From Bradyrhizobium sp. AZCC 2262 (GTDB taxonomy: Bacteria > Pseudomonadota > Alphaproteobacteria > Rhizobiales > Xanthobacteraceae), in NCBI RefSeq assembly GCF_036924535.1, contig NZ_JAZHRT010000001.1:7998001-8062000 (forward strand): 64,000 bases of DNA, read 5' to 3'. The notes under the pieces are model-generated. The model had not been told where the DNA came from, did no database searches, and saw nothing but the letters and a program-made list of their open reading frames with translations. Position numbers and translations under genes: made by a program. Position 1 is the stretch's first letter; every line of letters begins with the position of its first letter. Positions 35,029-44,185 of this stretch are shown one piece after another.

Positions 35029-35781
35029 ATGTTGGACGCCGCCGTCAAGGCGCTTTCGCAGATCCTGTCGCCACCGATGCGCACCATCCTGTGGCGCTCG
35101 ATCGGGCTGGCGCTGGTGCTGATCACGGTGCTGGCCATTGGCTTGCAGCGCGCGCTGAGCTGGTTTGCCGACTACGGCGAGGGCTGGGCGGAGGCGATGC
35201 TCGGGCCTGGGTTCCACACCACGCTGCACGTCCTGTCATGGATCATCTCGATCGCGGCTGGCCTAGGTGTCGTGCTCGGCGGCATTTTCCTGATGCCGGC
35301 GGTCACCTCGCTGGTGGCTAGCGTGTTCGTCGACGACGTCGCCGAGCATGTCGAGCGCGAACATTATCCGGCGGAACGCCCGGGCGACGCGCTGCCGCTC
35401 GGCGTCGCGATTCCCGAGGGCATCAAGACGGCGCTGCTGACCATTTTGGTCTATTTGATCGCGCTGCCCTTCGTGCTGTTCGCCGGCGCCGGCTTCCTGA
35501 TCTTCTTCATTGCCACCGCCTGGCTGCTCGGCCGCGAATATTTCGAACTCGCGGCGATGCGCTTCCGCTCACCGGCGGAAGCCAAGGCGATGCGCAAGGA
35601 CAACGCGGCGACCGTGTTCACCGCCGGCCTGTTCATCGCGGCCTTCGTGTCGATCCCGATCGTCAATCTGGCAACGCCCGTGTTCGGCATGGCCTTCATG
35701 GTCCATATGCACAAGCGCCTGTCTGGGCCGCGGCCCGAATTGATCGAGCCAGGACGACGAACCAGCGTTCCCACCGGCTAA
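35029..35781 (+). CDS. EI24/CysZ-like membrane protein
   Basis: 250 residues with about four long hydrophobic segments (near 25-45, 65-90, 135-170 and 200-225) and the EI24 features FLMPAVTSLVASVFVDDVAEHVE and ATAWLLGREYFELAAMRF. CysZ members pass sulfate across the inner membrane; the wider EI24 family is not fully characterised, so sulfate transport is only a possibility. It overlaps the end of the convergent MFS gene by 4 bp. Confidence 0.8.
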   Translation: MLDAAVKALSQILSPPMRTILWRSIGLALVLITVLAIGLQRALSWFADYGEGWAEAMLGPGFHTTLHVLSWIISIAAGLGVVLGGIFLMPAVTSLVASVFVDDVAEHVEREHYPAERPGDALPLGVAIPEGIKTALLTILVYLIALPFVLFAGAGFLIFFIATAWLLGREYFELAAMRFRSPAEAKAMRKDNAATVFTAGLFIAAFVSIPIVNLATPVFGMAFMVHMHKRLSGPRPELIEPGRRTSVPTG

Positions 35782-37340
35782 TTCCCTCCCGGCTCCGTCC
35801 GATCGCGCGCAAACGGCACCAGGAGCAATCCGGCAATCGCTACGCAGGCCAGCATCGCCCAGGCTTCGTTGACACAGAGCGCCAACGACGCCTTCTCGAC
35901 CATCGGCCGTACGAACGCGACGGCGGCCTCGTCGGGCGGACCCGGCGGCCGGTTGGCGAGCAGCGTCGGATCGAGGCCGATCGCCTTCGCTGCGCTGACA
36001 TCTCCCGCCAGCAGGCGAACGCGAAAATCCTCGGCATGGATTCCGCTGCGGCCATACAGGATGGTGTCGATCAGCGCGATGCCGATGGCGCCACCGAGAT
36101 TCCGCATCAGGTTGAACAACCCGCTGGCGTCGGCGACCTCAATTTCAGGCAGTGCGCCCAGGGCGATGCGCGTCGGCGGCAGCAGGCAAAACATGATTGC
36201 GACACCGCGGACGATTTGCGGCCAGAACATCTCATCGAAATCGGCCGTGCGCGGCTGAATGGCACTCAAGCCGAGCCCCAGCGCGAACAGGGCGAAACCG
36301 CCGCCGGTAAGCGCGCGCGCGCCGATCCGGCTTTCCAGGATCGCGGCGATGGGGGCGGCGATGAGTTGCGCGACCCCGGTTACCAGCATGATCGTGCCAA
36401 TCTCGAAGGCATCGTGACGACGCACGAAGGCGAGAAACACCGGCATCAGATAGACCGAGCCGAACAGACCGACGCCAAGGCAAAAGCTCAAGGCGCAGCC
36501 GACCGCAAACGAACGTCGACGCAGTGTAACAAGCCGCACCACCGGATGCCCGGCGCCCAGGCTACGATGAACAAAAATGCCCAGGCCGACCGCGCTTCCC
36601 GCCAGCAAGACGATGCAGGTGGGTGACAGCCAGCCATGATGAGGTGCTTCCTTCAACCCGATCTCAAGGCCCGCCAGGGCTGCGGCCAACAGCACGAGAG
36701 AGCCGCTGTCCAGTTTCGCAAGCTCGGCGAAATCCGTTTCCTGGCGCGGTAGCAGGAACGGCGTCACCGAGGTCACGATCAACCCGGGGATGACGTTGAT
36801 CAGGAACAGCCACGGCCACGACCAGGTTTCCGTGATCCAGCCGCCGACGACGGGGCCAACCGTCGGCGCCAGCACGGCGACGACCCCGCCGATCGTGGTG
36901 GCGACGGCGTGAAGCCTGTGCGGAAACAGCAGGAAAACCGCGGTGAAGACCGCAGGGATCAGCACGCCGCCGGCAAATCCCTGCACCACGCGGAATACTA
37001 GCAGCACGGCAAAGCCGCCGCTGTAGGCGCAGCCGATCGATGCAAGGGTAAAGAGCGCCACCGCTGCGGCGACCAGCCATCGCAAGGTCAGGACGCGCGT
37101 GAACAGGCCGGTCAGGGGAATCGCGACCACCTCCGCTATCAGGTAGGCGGTCTGGACCCAGCTCATGGCATCCTGGGAAATCGCAAGCGCCCGCTGGATC
37201 GCCGGCAACGACGTCGCCACCACCTGGATATCAAGGATGGCCATGAACATGCCAAGGCACATCAGCAGGAAGGCAGCCCAGGTTCCGATGGAAGGCGTGG
37301 CTATCGCAGCGCCGGACGGGGGCTCTTGCCGGTCGCTCAT
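35778..37340 (-). CDS. MFS transporter, DHA2 (EmrB/QacA) type, in the polyketide operon
   Basis: 520 residues, about 14 membrane helices, DHA2 drug:H+ antiporter type (GMFMAILDIQVVATSLPAIQRAL near the N-terminus is motif D1-like; GPVVGGWITETWSWPWLFLINV is motif C). Its ATG overlaps the stop of the methyltransferase gene (ATGA at 37337-37340), so translation is coupled. It is the last of three genes after the type III polyketide synthase and is likely the exporter of the methylated product (inference). Confidence 0.88.
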   Translation of the reverse strand: MSDRQEPPSGAAIATPSIGTWAAFLLMCLGMFMAILDIQVVATSLPAIQRALAISQDAMSWVQTAYLIAEVVAIPLTGLFTRVLTLRWLVAAAVALFTLASIGCAYSGGFAVLLVFRVVQGFAGGVLIPAVFTAVFLLFPHRLHAVATTIGGVVAVLAPTVGPVVGGWITETWSWPWLFLINVIPGLIVTSVTPFLLPRQETDFAELAKLDSGSLVLLAAALAGLEIGLKEAPHHGWLSPTCIVLLAGSAVGLGIFVHRSLGAGHPVVRLVTLRRRSFAVGCALSFCLGVGLFGSVYLMPVFLAFVRRHDAFEIGTIMLVTGVAQLIAAPIAAILESRIGARALTGGGFALFALGLGLSAIQPRTADFDEMFWPQIVRGVAIMFCLLPPTRIALGALPEIEVADASGLFNLMRNLGGAIGIALIDTILYGRSGIHAEDFRVRLLAGDVSAAKAIGLDPTLLANRPPGPPDEAAVAFVRPMVEKASLALCVNEAWAMLACVAIAGLLLVPFARDRTEPGGN

Positions 37341-37852
37341 TCGGCTGGACGCGCAAACCGGCCGCCGGCCGCGGAGAGCGCGGATGTTTCGGCACGAATC
37401 CGGATCACAAGCACCGCGGCGTTGAGCGCGGTAAAGATCAGCGCCAACAGGGGCAGATGCAGCGCGAGTGGAAGCAGCGCGATCTCTGCGGCAACCACCG
37501 CATAGTTGGGATGCGCAAGATATCTGTAGGGCCCCGACGCGACCAGCGGTTCGCCTGGCAGCACGATGATGCGCGTGGTCCATCGCGGCCCCAGTGTGGC
37601 AAGGATCCACAGTCGCAAGCCTTGCAGCACGATGAAGCCCGCAAGTGCCGGGAGACCGACGTCCTGATCGCGGCCCCAGATCCACAACGCGATCAGCCAC
37701 GCCGCATGAACCGACACGACCAGCGGATAGTGACTGGCGCTCACCTCGATCGCCCCGCGCGCCAGCAGCCGGCTTGTGTTGCGGCGGGCGAGAGCGAGCT
37801 CACCCAGACGCTGCAGCGTGACCAGCAGGAGAATGGTTGACGCAAAACTCAC
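37337..37852 (-). CDS. isoprenylcysteine carboxyl methyltransferase-like membrane methyltransferase
   Basis: 171 residues from GTG at 37852; four to five membrane helices with the C-terminal ICMT signature GPYRYLAHPNYAVVAAEIALLPL and ending in RIRAETSAL. The GTG overlaps the synthase stop (GTGA, 37849-37852). In Bacillus subtilis the equivalent neighbour BpsB methylates alkylpyrones made by the type III synthase BpsA (established), so the same job is likely here. Confidence 0.87.
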   Translation of the reverse strand: MSFASTILLLVTLQRLGELALARRNTSRLLARGAIEVSASHYPLVVSVHAAWLIALWIWGRDQDVGLPALAGFIVLQGLRLWILATLGPRWTTRIIVLPGEPLVASGPYRYLAHPNYAVVAAEIALLPLALHLPLLALIFTALNAAVLVIRIRAETSALSAAGGRFARPAE

Positions 37853-38901
37853 GCGGCGTGCCGCAATGCGACGCAGCTTGCGGTGAAACCGGGCCCGAGC
37901 GCGGTTAACAGCGACCGCGCCGGCAACCCCCGCACAATGGCGCGTTCCAGCACGAACAGAACCGTCGGCGCCGACATGTTGCCGTAATCGGCAATGACTT
38001 CGCGCTCGTGATCGAGCGTGCCCTGATCCAGCGATAGCGCGCGCTCGAGTGCGGCAATCACTTTCGTACCGCCGGGATGACAGATGAAGCGATCGATATC
38101 TCCGGCAGAAAGTTTCATCCGCGAGAGCATTTCGATCACCGCCGGACCGAAATGTTCGGCAACGAAATCGGGAATCGTGCGCTGGAAGATGACGCCAAAT
38201 CCCTCGGGATCGACGCTCCATCCCATGATGTCGAGCGTGTCGGGCCACAGTTTTTCGCCTGTTGCCTCGATCCGGGTCGCGCCTCCGTCGCCGGCGCGCA
38301 GAATAATGGCCGCCGCACCGTCGCCGAACAGGCTGGCAGCGACGATATTGGCCTTGGTCAATTCGTCGTGACGCACCGCAAGCGTGCAGAGTTCGAGCGC
38401 GACCAGCAGCACGTTGGTCCCGGGCCGCGCCTGCGCTAGGCGCGATGCGATCGACAGACCCGACACGCCGCCCGCGCACCCCAGGCCGAACACGGGCACG
38501 CGCGACACGTCGCTACGCAAGCCGAGTTTGCCGGCGACCCGCGCCTCCAGCGTCGGCGTCGCGATACCGGTCGAACATACCGTGACAACAGTGTCGATAT
38601 CGCCGGCCGAGAGATCGGCACGCGCGATGGCCTTGCGCGCGACGTCGACAAACAGCGATTCCGCCCCTTCCAGAAAAGCCTGTGTCCGCTCCGGCCAGCC
38701 GCGCCGCTCGAGATACCATTCGATGGGTTTGACCCCATAGCGATGCCGGATGCCGGTATTGGCAAACAGGCTCGAAAGCGTCTCGAACTGCGGATAGCGA
38801 TCAGCGAGGAGATCGTGCGCGGCCTGGAGGATCTGCTTCTGATGGAATTGATATGGCGGAATCGAGGTCGCCAGCGAAACCAGCGCGGCCGTGTGGTTCA
38901 T
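37849..38901 (-). CDS. type III polyketide synthase (chalcone/stilbene synthase family)
   Basis: 350 residues, a homodimeric thiolase-fold enzyme that extends a starter acyl-CoA with malonyl-CoA. The catalytic triad is complete: C142 (FGLGCAGGVSG), H275 (FICHPGGTKV) and N308 (DYGNMSAPTVLF). The gatekeeper region is not that of plant chalcone synthases; the closest types are bacterial alkylpyrone/alkylresorcinol synthases. First gene of a coupled operon with an ICMT-like methyltransferase and an MFS exporter. Its promoter should lie in the 180-bp gap upstream. Confidence 0.93.
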   Translation of the reverse strand: MNHTAALVSLATSIPPYQFHQKQILQAAHDLLADRYPQFETLSSLFANTGIRHRYGVKPIEWYLERRGWPERTQAFLEGAESLFVDVARKAIARADLSAGDIDTVVTVCSTGIATPTLEARVAGKLGLRSDVSRVPVFGLGCAGGVSGLSIASRLAQARPGTNVLLVALELCTLAVRHDELTKANIVAASLFGDGAAAIILRAGDGGATRIEATGEKLWPDTLDIMGWSVDPEGFGVIFQRTIPDFVAEHFGPAVIEMLSRMKLSAGDIDRFICHPGGTKVIAALERALSLDQGTLDHEREVIADYGNMSAPTVLFVLERAIVRGLPARSLLTALGPGFTASCVALRHAA

Positions 38902-39080
38902 ATCGCGGTCCCCGCCTTCGGTACTCCAACATATGAGACCGCGCGATCATGCGAATATTTCGGCGACTGCCGTTGTCGAACGGCTTGCTGCATTCACTAT
39001 AATTTGAATGCAGCCCTTTGATGTCGCAATCGAGCCAGCGCGGCGGCAGGCGTTGTCGGCGTTCTGATCCGCGCCACCCG

Positions 39081-40706
39081 TTACGACACGGTCGCCCCGC
39101 ACTTCCGCAGCACGTTTTTCGCGAAACCGAACGGTGCCGGCGTGAAAGGGCCCGGCGGCGCGCGGGTGATCAGGGCGACGAAGAACAGCCCAGTTATCGC
39201 CAGCCAGAAGCACAGCCAAAATCCGTCGATATAGGCGAGCACGTTGGCTTCGCGCTGGACCCGCGCTGCCAACGTCCCCAGCGCCCGCGCCGGGGCCGCG
39301 CCGGCGCCATGGCTGGCGAAATAATCCCCGAGCTGCTTGAGCATGCGCGTCACGTCGAAGCCGCCATTTTCGATGTGCAGTCCGAGATAATTGGAATGGA
39401 TCTGCTCGCGCACGCGCAGCCATGTGCCCATCAGCGCCACGCCGATCTCGGCGCCGCCGAGCCGCATGATCTGGATATAGGCGGCGAATGACGTCGCGCG
39501 GGTTGGATCCACATTGGACAGCGCGAGGATGATGATCGGTAACAGCGTGAGCGCCTGCCCGATCGACTGCAGCATCACGATGCCGGCGAAATCGCCGCGC
39601 GCCCAGTCATGGGTCAGTTGCGTTCCCCACAGATTGGCGGCAGCGAACGCCGAAAAGCCGAGGACCACAACGGCGCGTGCATCGAAATGCCGAAGCAGGA
39701 AGATCGAGAACGGCACCAGCACCACCATGGGCAAGGCGCCAAAGGTCAGGAGCAGCACGCCGCTTTGTTCGGGCCGCATCAGGCCAACAACGCTGAGGAA
39801 ATTCGGTACCAGCGACGAGTTGGAGAGGCTGGTCAGGGTGTACAGCAGGATGGCGACCAGCGAGAGCCCGACATTGCGCGAGAACAGCACATTGACGTGG
39901 GCCCAGGGCTGGTGAACCAGCGTCTCGTTGATCAGAAAGGCGATGAACAGCGCGCCGCCGGCGAGCAACAGCGCCATCACCGTGCCCGACTCCAGCCAGT
40001 CCAGACGATTGCCCTGATCGAGACCGGCATAGATCATCGAGACGGAGGCCCCGAGCAGCAGCATCCCGCCCCAGTCGGCGTGCCTCAGCAGGTCGCGATT
40101 GATCGGCTCATTGGGCGTACCGAGATAGACCATCAGGCCCATCAGCGGCGCTATCACCACGCCCTGCCAATACAGCCACTGCCATCCCAGATGATCGACA
40201 TAGAAGCCGACCAGCGAGGTGGAGCTGTCGAGCGCGAATCCTACCCTGATCGAATAGATCGAGATCGCCGGCAGCCACCATTTGATCGGCAAATTACGCA
40301 AGATGATCATCAGTGTCGCCGGCACGAAGGTGCCGAGCAGCATGCCATGCACGATGCTGAGCGTGATCAGCGTGGGGTAATTGTGCACGAACGGGATCAG
40401 CAGCGAGATCAGGGAATAGACCAGAGCCGGAATGCCGAGCACGCGGCGCATCCCGAATACGGTCGCAAGCCACGCCACTGCCGGCGCGACGAATATCTGC
40501 GAGCCGATGCCCGCGGTGGAGAGCCAGGCGCCCTCGTCGAAGCCGAGCGAAAATGCGCCGCGCAGATCAGGCAGGCCTACCGTCGTCAGCCGGCTGTCGA
40601 AGTTCGCCAGAAACGCGCCGAGCAGCACCGCGCCTACCGCAAACAGCGGCTGCGGCGCGATCCCGCCGCGCGAAACCGGTCCGCGATCTCGGTCATTTTC
40701 CGCCAT
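39081..40706 (-). CDS. MFS transporter, DHA2 (EmrB-like)
   Basis: 541 residues with about 14 membrane helices. The opening LLGAFLANFDSRLTTVGLPDLRGAF and the overall plan match EmrB-type pumps. The start ATG at 40706 lies inside the end of the HlyD-type adaptor gene (14-nt overlap), so the two are coupled and form an EmrAB-like efflux pair. The polyketide operon follows on the same strand, 180 bp away. Confidence 0.87.
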   Translation of the reverse strand: MAENDRDRGPVSRGGIAPQPLFAVGAVLLGAFLANFDSRLTTVGLPDLRGAFSLGFDEGAWLSTAGIGSQIFVAPAVAWLATVFGMRRVLGIPALVYSLISLLIPFVHNYPTLITLSIVHGMLLGTFVPATLMIILRNLPIKWWLPAISIYSIRVGFALDSSTSLVGFYVDHLGWQWLYWQGVVIAPLMGLMVYLGTPNEPINRDLLRHADWGGMLLLGASVSMIYAGLDQGNRLDWLESGTVMALLLAGGALFIAFLINETLVHQPWAHVNVLFSRNVGLSLVAILLYTLTSLSNSSLVPNFLSVVGLMRPEQSGVLLLTFGALPMVVLVPFSIFLLRHFDARAVVVLGFSAFAAANLWGTQLTHDWARGDFAGIVMLQSIGQALTLLPIIILALSNVDPTRATSFAAYIQIMRLGGAEIGVALMGTWLRVREQIHSNYLGLHIENGGFDVTRMLKQLGDYFASHGAGAAPARALGTLAARVQREANVLAYIDGFWLCFWLAITGLFFVALITRAPPGPFTPAPFGFAKNVLRKCGATVS

Positions 40707-41844
40707 CCGTGCCCGCCTCGCCGGTATTGATATGGGTGAAGACGGACATTCCGGGCAGCAGGCGTTCCAGCAGCGGCTGGTTCTTGTCGAACTGGATGCG
40801 AACCGGGACCCGCTGAACCACTTTGGTGAAATTGCCGGTGGCATTGTCCGGCGGCAGCAGCGCGAATTGCGAGCCGCTCGCCGGCGCAATCCGCTCGACA
40901 CGGCCATGTAGTCTTTCGTTGGGGAAACTATCGATGGTGATCTCGACAGGTTGACCGGGTTTGACCCGCGTCAACTGTGTCTCCTTGTAATTGGCGATCA
41001 CATAGACGTTCGGCAGCGGTACCACGTTGATCAGATTGGTGCCGATATTGACGTAATCGCCCGGCTGCACCTGCCGCTCGCCGGTGACGCCGTCGAACGG
41101 CGCCACGATCTTGGTGTAGCCGAGCTTGAGCTTGGCCGCGGCCAGCGTAGCCTTGGCGCCCTCGAGGTCGGCCGCCCGCTGCTTCTTGGTGCCCGACAGC
41201 ACTTCGAGCTGATGACGTTGCGCGGCGATGACGGCGCGGCTCGCACGCACGTCGGCCTGCGCCTTGGCAAACCCCGCGGTCGCCTGTTCGAGCCTTTGGC
41301 GCGTACCGGATTCGGTTTGCGACAACGACTGCTGACGCTCCTGTTCCTGACGCGCTTCGACCTCCTGGGCCGTCGCGGATACGAGCTGGGCTTCGGCCTG
41401 TGCGATCGTCGCATATTGCAGTTCGACCTGATTGCTCAGATTGTCGAGGGCTGCCTGCGCGGCGGCGACGCTGGCCTCGGCCTGTGCGACCTGAGCCGCG
41501 TAGTCGGCGGGGTCGATCTGCACCAGCAAATCGCCGGCCTTGACGCGCTGGAAATCATTCACAGCGACCGTAATCACCTCGCCGGCGACCCGGCTGCTCA
41601 ACCGCGTGAGCTCGGCACGGACATAGGCGTCGTTGGTGGTCTGGATCTTGGCGCTGCCGACCCAGGCATCCCAGTGCAGCGTCGCCACCGTGATAAAGGC
41701 AAACGCCATCAGTACCGCGAACAATGGAATCGTGAAGCGGCCCCAGAAGCCGCCTGTCGCCGGCGGCGGCTTTGGAGCCGGCGCGACCGGCGGAGACGGG
41801 GCCTGACTTGCGGGTGGCGGGCTCGCTTGATCCTGCTGACTCAC
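40693..41844 (-). CDS. HlyD/EmrA-type membrane fusion protein
   Basis: 383 residues from GTG at 41844 (gaggggg at a good distance). A Pro/Ala-rich cytoplasmic start is followed by one membrane helix (FTIPLFAVLMAFAFITVATL, about 38-57), the first lipoyl half (TTNDAYVRAELTRLSSRVAGEVITVAVNDFQRVKAGDLLVQIDPADY), a long coiled-coil hairpin rich in A, Q and E, the second lipoyl half (IVAPFDGVTGERQVQPGDYVN) and a beta barrel. It links the inner-membrane MFS pump to an outer-membrane channel; no TolC gene is present here. Confidence 0.9.
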   Translation of the reverse strand: MSQQDQASPPPASQAPSPPVAPAPKPPPATGGFWGRFTIPLFAVLMAFAFITVATLHWDAWVGSAKIQTTNDAYVRAELTRLSSRVAGEVITVAVNDFQRVKAGDLLVQIDPADYAAQVAQAEASVAAAQAALDNLSNQVELQYATIAQAEAQLVSATAQEVEARQEQERQQSLSQTESGTRQRLEQATAGFAKAQADVRASRAVIAAQRHQLEVLSGTKKQRAADLEGAKATLAAAKLKLGYTKIVAPFDGVTGERQVQPGDYVNIGTNLINVVPLPNVYVIANYKETQLTRVKPGQPVEITIDSFPNERLHGRVERIAPASGSQFALLPPDNATGNFTKVVQRVPVRIQFDKNQPLLERLLPGMSVFTHINTGEAGTDGGK

Positions 41845-43230: not shown

Positions 43231-43264
43231 GTAGTTGTCAGAAATCGGGTGGTTTGGACCGCGC

Positions 43265-44185
43265 ATGAGCCCTAAATCAGACCCCATGATGATATCAGCC
43301 ATACATGACCAGCGCCTGGCCAAGCCGGGCCTTCAGCACGCCGCCGCGTTGCGCGACTATGACTCGGTGCGCCGCGCCATCGCCTTCATCTCGGAGCACT
43401 GGCGCGCGCAACCGACCATCGAGGCGATGGCGGACGCCGCCGCCGTGACGCCGGACGAATTGCACCATCTGTTCCGCCGCTGGGCCGGTCTGACGCCGAA
43501 GGCTTTCATGCAGGCGCTGACACTGGATCACGCCAAGGGCCTGTTGCGCGATTCCGCCAGCGTGCTCGACGCAGCACTCGACTCGGGGCTGTCAGGCCCG
43601 GGCCGGCTGCATGATCTGTTCGTCACCCATGAAGCGATGTCGCCGGGCGAATGGAAGAACGGCGGCGCCGGCATGACGCTGCGCTACGGTTTCCATGTTT
43701 GCCCGTTCGGCACCGCCATCGTGATCGCCAGCGAACGCGGCCTTGCCGGGCTTGCCTTCGCCGATCCCGGCGAGGAGCCGACGGCGTTTGCCGACATGAA
43801 GCGGCGCTGGCCGAACGCGACCTATGTCGAGGACCACGACGGCACCGTTGGCCTCGCGCAACGCGTCTTCGATACGCGGCTGTGGCGGCCGGACCAGCCG
43901 CTCCGCGTGGTCCTGATCGGCACCGATTTCGAGGTGCGGGTGTGGGAGACGCTGCTGAAGATCCCGATGGGCCGCGCGGTCTGCTATTCGGATATCGCCA
44001 ACAAGATCAAAAACCCGAAGGCGTCACGCGCCGTCGGCGCCGCGGTCGGCCGCAATCCGGTATCATTCGTGGTGCCCTGCCATCGCGCACTCGGCAAAGG
44101 CGGCGCGCTGACCGGCTATCACTGGGGCATCACGCGCAAGCAGGCGATGCTGGGCTGGGAAGCCGGACAGGTCGGGCTACATTGA
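43265..44185 (+). CDS. Ada-like fusion: AraC HTH plus O6-methylguanine-DNA methyltransferase
   Basis: 306 residues. The first part (about 30-125) is an AraC-type HTH (IAFISEHWRAQPTIEAMADAAAVTPDELHHLFRRWAGLTPKAFMQ); the second is the MGMT domain with the acceptor Cys in FVVPCHRALGKGG and the DNA-binding helix ending ASRAVGAAVGRNP. The N-terminal phosphotriester (AdaA, four-Cys) domain is missing, so it is an AdaB-type repair protein fused to an HTH. ATG at 43265 chosen; in-frame ATGs at 43286 and 43289 are possible. Confidence 0.9.
   Translation: MSPKSDPMMISAIHDQRLAKPGLQHAAALRDYDSVRRAIAFISEHWRAQPTIEAMADAAAVTPDELHHLFRRWAGLTPKAFMQALTLDHAKGLLRDSASVLDAALDSGLSGPGRLHDLFVTHEAMSPGEWKNGGAGMTLRYGFHVCPFGTAIVIASERGLAGLAFADPGEEPTAFADMKRRWPNATYVEDHDGTVGLAQRVFDTRLWRPDQPLRVVLIGTDFEVRVWETLLKIPMGRAVCYSDIANKIKNPKASRAVGAAVGRNPVSFVVPCHRALGKGGALTGYHWGITRKQAMLGWEAGQVGLH

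Follow-up and report, generated by a model that had tools for sequence, protein, structure and literature searches.

Here, we describe a three-gene unit that encodes a type III polyketide synthase, an ICMT-family methyltransferase and a DHA2-type exporter of the major facilitator superfamily (MFS), located in a stretch of 64,000 nucleotides (the window) from Bradyrhizobium sp. AZCC 2262; the window is part of a single contig of 9.48 Mb. Co-occurrence counts in samples of the order and the genus show that the synthase and the methyltransferase form a nearly fixed pair, and that the MFS gene is an accessory tied to this pair and present in a subset. We consider it somewhat probable that the three genes constitute one operon, with a promoter region of its own, whose proteins make a long-chain alkylresorcinol or alkylpyrone, O-methylate it and export it. 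No prior description of a synthase-methyltransferase-MFS unit was seen among the openly licensed PMC papers that our searches listed. The genes of the unit are as follows.

37849..38901, minus strand: type III polyketide synthase, 350 aa; catalytic Cys142, His275 and Asn308; Trp228 within the motif IMGW
37337..37852, minus strand: ICMT-family methyltransferase, 171 aa; GTG start within the synthase stop
35778..37340, minus strand: DHA2 (EmrB/EfpA/QacA-type) MFS exporter, 520 aa; ATG start within the methyltransferase stop

An earlier note on this DNA had placed a synthase, a methyltransferase and an MFS gene here, overlapping by GTGA and ATGA, and all three open reading frames were found on the minus strand with 4-base overlaps of just these letters (GTGA between synthase and methyltransferase, ATGA between methyltransferase and MFS). 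The start of the MFS gene at ATG 37340 is our choice; the mechanical list of open reading frames has a longer frame from 37700.

We infer the starter, the ring type, the methylation site, the transport and its direction, and the activity of the promoter. The synthase would be primed with a long-chain acyl starter; extension with malonyl-CoA would give a tri- or tetraketide, and ring closure would then yield an alkylresorcinol (for which Trp228 speaks mildly) or an alkylpyrone. The ICMT-type methyltransferase, whose role is proposed by analogy with BpsB, would O-methylate a ring hydroxyl, and the DHA2 MFS protein would move the polyketide lipid out of the inner membrane. By this analogy, the expected product of the core pair is a methylated long-chain pyrone or resorcinol, which the MFS protein would export. 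The emrAB-like genes upstream would occupy the same site after nth as a neighbour independent of the unit.

The encoded proteins and the likely product

The synthase has both the N- and C-terminal domains of chalcone/stilbene synthases (PF00195, 72.3 bits; PF02797, 52.5 bits; cut-offs 27) as well as the Cys-His-Asn triad, which places it among the type III polyketide synthases, and the source genome contains one match to the type III C-terminal domain. Cys142, His275 and Asn308, together with Trp228, are invariant in 22 of 22 sequences of one alignment (A1) and 27 of 27 of another (A4), the two being drawn partly from the same genomes. By sequence, the closest solved relative is mycobacterial Pks11, followed by THNS (1u0m); the AlphaFold2 model (mean pLDDT, the predicted local distance difference test, 86.7) likewise has Pks11 as its first structural match (template modelling (TM) score 0.88, 31% identity). 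Trp228 of IMGW aligns to Pks11 position 230, where THNS has Tyr. Trp230 of MMAR_2474 is common to ArsB, FtpA, SrsA, PKS10 and PKS11 and has been tied to resorcinol formation, and Tyr occupies position 230 in an enzyme making only triketide pyrones (PMC5916927). When MMAR_2474 position 230 is equated with Pks11 position 230, a mapping of our own, W228 of the synthase falls at this feature of alkylresorcinol formers, and Trp228 may mildly favour a capacity for alkylresorcinol. The nearest homologues are labelled “alkylresorcinol/alkylpyrone synthase” by one protein source, in which all scored candidates, at least 7999, matched; among the named genomes listed, the nearest by synthase are Bradyrhizobium (AUGA SZCCT0283, 96% identical).

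It is quite improbable that the synthase makes a short-starter aromatic, similar to tetrahydroxynaphthalene (THN) or dihydroxyphenylacetate, and not a long-chain lipid. After Pks11, THNS ranks second among the solved relatives, and the best NCBIfam match of the synthase is DpgA (NF042429), but this match, at 156.1 bits, stays below its cut-off of 425. The Trp is shared with Pks11, whereas THNS has Tyr, and an ICMT-type partner would suit a lipid.

The methyltransferase is assigned to its family by PF04140 (ICMT; 87.7 bits, cut-off 24) and by a profile match to Ma-ICMT (4a2n, E 1.9e-4). Its H114-P115-N116-Y117 motif, R151 and E155 are invariant in 19 of 19 sequences, and the predicted fold (pLDDT 84.4) has five long helices. 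The MFS protein scores 353 bits with TIGR00711 (cut-off 230.2), as expected of a DHA2 MFS permease, and shows 13 hydropathy segments. It resembles the DHA2 exporters EmrB and mycobacterial EfpA in matching their PDB chains, along with that of an antiseptic resistance protein; it differs from EmrB in falling below the cut-off of the NCBI EmrB family (204.8 bits, cut-off 925) and in that no EmrA-type gene lies within the three-gene operon. PADLOC gave no match for any of three proteins submitted.

Co-occurrence of the three genes across genomes

Three samples bear on whether these genes form a unit, and no count in them is corrected for kinship. The named loci (81) comprise the best 80 of 575 confirmed relatives plus the window, and the share of MFS genes among them is biased upwards; the order sample (297 genomes) is a fairer basis, and the genus sample holds 117 genomes. 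After seven of the 81 named loci with fewer than 2100 bases beyond the synthase had been set aside (L128, one of these, shows both partners), the methyltransferase adjoins the synthase in 65 of 74 loci. Both partners are adjacent in 46 of 74, a number that includes L110, with its MFS gene in two pieces, and leaves out L065, with a split MFS gene. The full cassette is found in Bradyrhizobium, Rhizobium, Mycoplana, Phyllobacterium, Magnetospirillum and Telmatospirillum, and in metagenome-assembled genomes of Acetobacteraceae, Pseudorhodobacter and Reyranella; eight of the nine named loci lacking the methyltransferase are from Rhizobium (L121 has weak remnants). The overlaps recur as well. Of 71 measurable loci, 64 have their closest methyltransferase start at -4 relative to the stop of the synthase; for the MFS gene, 24 of 47 loci have the closest start at -4 relative to the stop of the methyltransferase. 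This is more than chance, with the caveats that a TGA stop in that relative frame yields an overlapping start almost automatically and that the loci have a common ancestry.

The order sample contains 61 genomes with synthase and methyltransferase, one with the synthase alone and six with the methyltransferase alone. When MFS proteins are counted at 55% identity or more and synthases below 43% are not counted (G159, G131, G366 and weaker ones), 19 genomes have both synthase and MFS, 43 only the synthase and none only the MFS (Fisher p 9.8e-15, kinship ignored). In 13 of the 19 genomes with both, the MFS and synthase genes share a contig and are 481-591 bases apart. The genus sample gives 28 genomes with synthase and MFS, one with the synthase only (G040), two with the MFS only (G074, G020) and 86 with neither; here MFS orthologues (at least 64% identity) are separated by a clear gap from paralogues (at most 42%). 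Type III synthases of 34-37% identity (G087, G028, G038, G056; second copies in G048 and G076) and the synthase fragments of G098 were not counted, and the fragmented G032 and G048 were counted as synthase-bearing. Protein distances among the three rise together, with a Mantel rho of 0.77-0.85 over 45 loci and 0.51-0.65 over 24 distant loci.

The coupled unit that the earlier note had read from a single sequence is thus supported by comparative genomics, since 61 of 62 synthase-bearing order genomes have the methyltransferase and all 19 genomes with the MFS hold a synthase. Its view of the MFS gene as third member stands only in part: the gene is recurrent (28 of 29 synthase-bearing genus genomes) and yet optional, and the absence of the MFS gene from homologous operons, which the note had named as evidence that would overturn its proposal, is partly borne out, as 43 of the 62 synthase-bearing order genomes have no MFS orthologue.

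This distribution raises the alternative that the core pair produces a lipid that stays in the membrane without ever being exported, and that the MFS protein is a pump for drug or stress efflux in general, linked to the pair only by a common transcript. Polyspecificity is widespread among DHA2 pumps, and this explanation would also fit the frequent lack of the MFS orthologue in the order and its occurrence apart from the synthase in the two genus genomes. We regard it as unlikely, in view of the finding that the orthologue occurs in none of the 235 order genomes without a counted synthase at the 55% cut (two at 47%), and that within the genus, where orthologues and paralogues are plainly told apart, nearly every synthase genome has it.

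A number of points speak against the proposed synthesis and export of a methylated lipid. Besides the 43 order genomes lacking the MFS orthologue, the gene lies on another contig in 6 of the 19 order genomes with both, and in the genus the MFS proteins of G074 and G020 are 64-66% identical in genomes with no synthase. The 55% cut in the order is our choice, at a level where the identities show no clear gap; a 47% cut adds G339, G391 and G298 (with synthase) and G375 and G219 (without), and up to 5 MFS candidates per genome were scored in the order and up to 12 in the genus. The weakest Mantel value, 0.506 for synthase and methyltransferase over the 24 distant loci, is only slightly above the 0.473 of the best of 300 permutations, and the correlated distances may come from common descent alone, the Mantel run lacking a species-tree control. 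Foldseek gave a non-significant result for the methyltransferase (best 4a2n, Ma-ICMT, E 0.69, TM 0.58), and hydropathy shows only two strong segments in this protein, whereas the model has five long helices. Trp228 favours a resorcinol only mildly because the Trp rule is weak: Pks11 has the Trp, yet the titles of its crystal entries name methyl-branched alkylpyrones, and the residue at this position is Leu in CylI, whose structure was solved with a resorcinol product, so that Trp is not necessary. The likeness to Bacillus BpsA/BpsB is judged from the described gene make-up. Finally, a Tn5 mutant of ORS278 with the insertion in BRADO0151, a gene with the annotation of a type III polyketide synthase, was reported in PMC3899966 to be unaltered in symbiotic performance. 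BRADO0151 is probably the orthologue of the synthase, because STM3809 and STM3843, strains that appear in the same study, each have a single type III domain match, at the orthologue.

Some loci depart from the common arrangement. One genus genome (G040, locus L160, 2090-6660) has the synthase-methyltransferase pair with no MFS gene, and an HlyD gene and an AcrB-type RND gene follow further downstream on the same strand. No common replacement exporter was seen in 13 of the 19 named loci lacking the MFS gene and a few others, where one or two neighbouring genes each were scanned; the next genes vary by locus. The MFS orthologues of L158 and L159 (G074, G020) adjoin a DUF815 ATPase gene, a second and separate home. 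Plasmids of Rhizobium etli (L162, p42d) and R. beringeri (L164, pRlX3) carry a lone synthase, with neither methyltransferase nor MFS gene, and have genes for BON, CBS, universal stress or Hsp20 proteins nearby. On plasmid p_2 of Phyllobacterium sp. 628 (L163), the three-gene cassette is followed just downstream by IS6 transposases, which, together with its plasmid location, suggests that this cassette is mobile.

The upstream region and the emrAB neighbour

The minus strand reads nth (42914-41910), emrA-like, emrB-like, a gap of 179 bases (39080-38902), synthase, methyltransferase and MFS. The following features lie upstream of the synthase.

38992..39009, minus strand: inverted repeat ATTCAAATTATAGTGAAT, an 18-base core; probable operator of the synthase operon
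38987-39014, before the synthase: longer palindrome GCTGCATTCA-N8-TGAATGCAGC, containing the 18-base core
38954..38961, minus strand: second conserved element GAAATATT, 48 bases after the repeat start
39081..40706, minus strand: EmrB-like MFS subunit, a neighbour judged not to be a unit member
40693..41844, minus strand: EmrA-like membrane fusion protein, likewise judged not to be a unit member

Upstream regions were compared at 30 Bradyrhizobium-type loci. The pattern TCA[AC]-N6-[GT]TGA occurs at -150 to -85, about 100 bases before the synthase, in 22 of the 30 regions versus 0.2% of shuffled ones, and GAAATATT is present exactly in 16 of the 30 and in 0 of 900 shuffles; where a locus has both elements, GAAATATT stands 47-48 bases after the repeat start in 14 of 15 cases. 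With up to three mismatches, the 18-base palindrome is found at 11 of 12 loci that follow emrB and at 3 of 7 that follow nth (L069 was grouped with the latter though its nth is 1.9 kb away). The DNA around the palindrome aligns poorly between these groups and fully among close relatives, so shared ancestry explains part of the upstream likeness. In its own genome the core stands alone, with no other match at two or fewer mismatches, and a search of that genome for a regulon gave, besides the exact site, six matches at three mismatches versus nine for the reversed control. A scan for a sigma-70-type site before the synthase found none. From its position and conservation, we consider the palindrome a probable operator of the synthase operon. 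The hairpin at 38987-39014 was also considered as a terminator of emrB and rejected, as no T run follows it on the minus strand and the core recurs where nth is upstream.

The EmrAB-like pair reported just upstream of the synthase is indeed present (41844-40693 and 40706-39081). The EmrA-like protein passes PF16576 and PF13437 and scores 258.7 bits with TIGR00998, below the cut-off of 390.8; the EmrB-like protein scores 163.5 bits with TIGR00711, below 230.2. The earlier note took these genes into a five-gene block; in a pathway of this kind, emrAB and the MFS protein would provide a two-step export route for the polyketide. All five genes do lie on one strand within 6.1 kb, and in the genus sample EmrB orthologues are found in 21 of 29 synthase genomes against 40 of 88 without synthase, a weak excess (Fisher p 0.018, kinship ignored; G012, with a 58% EmrB, dropped and the partial EmrB of G034 counted). 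A second arrangement, with emrAB beyond the MFS gene (L067 = L155, nth-synthase-methyltransferase-MFS-emrA-emrB), again makes them neighbours. We nevertheless hold the five-gene pathway to be very improbable, and the comparison does not support the block. All 13 of the synthase-less genomes that were fetched (from the 40 with EmrB) have the order nth-emrA-emrB on one strand, and 8 of the 29 genomes with a synthase gave no match to EmrB at E <= 1e-100. These include the closest relative (G023, locus L051), where nth is directly followed by a synthase 96% identical to that of the window. Linkage of emrAB to the synthase was therefore not found to hold across genomes, and the synthase has a conserved upstream region of its own. 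Since emrAB occurs without the synthase and is missing beside a 96%-identical one, it was rejected as a pathway member; the simplest account is that the cassette and emrAB are independent residents of a variable site after nth. Beyond nth, on the plus strand at 43235-44185 of the window, lies a gene for an Ada-like protein (HTH_18 and a methylguanine methyltransferase domain).

Relation to known systems and significance

The Azotobacter ars, Streptomyces srs and mycobacterial pks10/pks11 systems resemble the unit in having a type III synthase that acts on long acyl chains, and Pks11 is the nearest solved structure to the window synthase. The ars system has a dedicated fatty acid synthase as partner. 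The synthases of all these systems share the resorcinol-associated Trp with that of the window (PMC5916927). Their partners are unlike those of the window, being the hydroxylase SrsC in Streptomyces and a P450 and an ABC transporter in mycobacteria, and none was seen with an ICMT and a DHA2 MFS protein in the portions of the sources available. The hidABC clusters of cyanobacteria and planctomycetes, and type III clusters of Acetobacteraceae, also combine a synthase and a methyltransferase in a short operon (PMC10896814, PMC8086630, PMC8776678), but in the passages available typically include an oxidoreductase or FAD monooxygenase; the window operon has none, and no oxidoreductase domain was found among the six block proteins scanned.

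The closest parallel is bpsA-bpsB of Bacillus subtilis (PMC5686519; Nakano 2009, by title), with which the unit shares its two-gene core. The proposed likeness holds by gene make-up: a type III synthase directly followed by an ICMT-family methyltransferase is the order in the window, at the 65 named loci where the two adjoin and, as a pair, in all but one of the 62 order genomes. On overexpression, bpsA-bpsB yielded triketide pyrones together with some tetraketide alkylresorcinols in small amounts (PMC5686519), and a Bacillus genome announcement lists an ICMT gene as its type III cluster (PMC11008187). In PMC5686519, bpsA-bpsB is described as a two-gene operon and the words “transporter” and “export” do not appear, whereas the window adds a third, overlapping MFS gene. 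That a type III product may be exported is not a new idea, because cyanobacterial clusters (Microcystis, cytochrome b5 group) include RND, MFS or ABC transporters, from which their authors infer extracellular products (PMC8086630). Those clusters are other and larger ones, with no coupled ICMT-MFS pair seen in the text available. What is new relative to the bpsA-bpsB kind is the recurrent, coupled MFS third gene.

In other organisms, the roles of alkylpyrones and alkylresorcinols include those of cyst component, quinone precursor and developmental signal (PMC4824345, PMC5916927, PMC5686519). More tentatively than the operon function itself, we suggest that the MFS protein could be a dedicated, translationally coupled lipid exporter, working in an EfpA-like mode on a methylated alkylresorcinol or alkylpyrone, and that the unit could represent a widespread alphaproteobacterial pathway for an envelope lipid or lipid signal, found in rhizobia among others and governed by a palindromic operator of its own. 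To our knowledge, the route by which alkylpyrones and alkylresorcinols leave the cell has been little studied. The comparison parts the likely unit, a core pair with an optional MFS gene, from an independent neighbouring pump, and a synthase-methyltransferase-exporter unit that recurs in genetically tractable rhizobia would make the export of such lipids testable.

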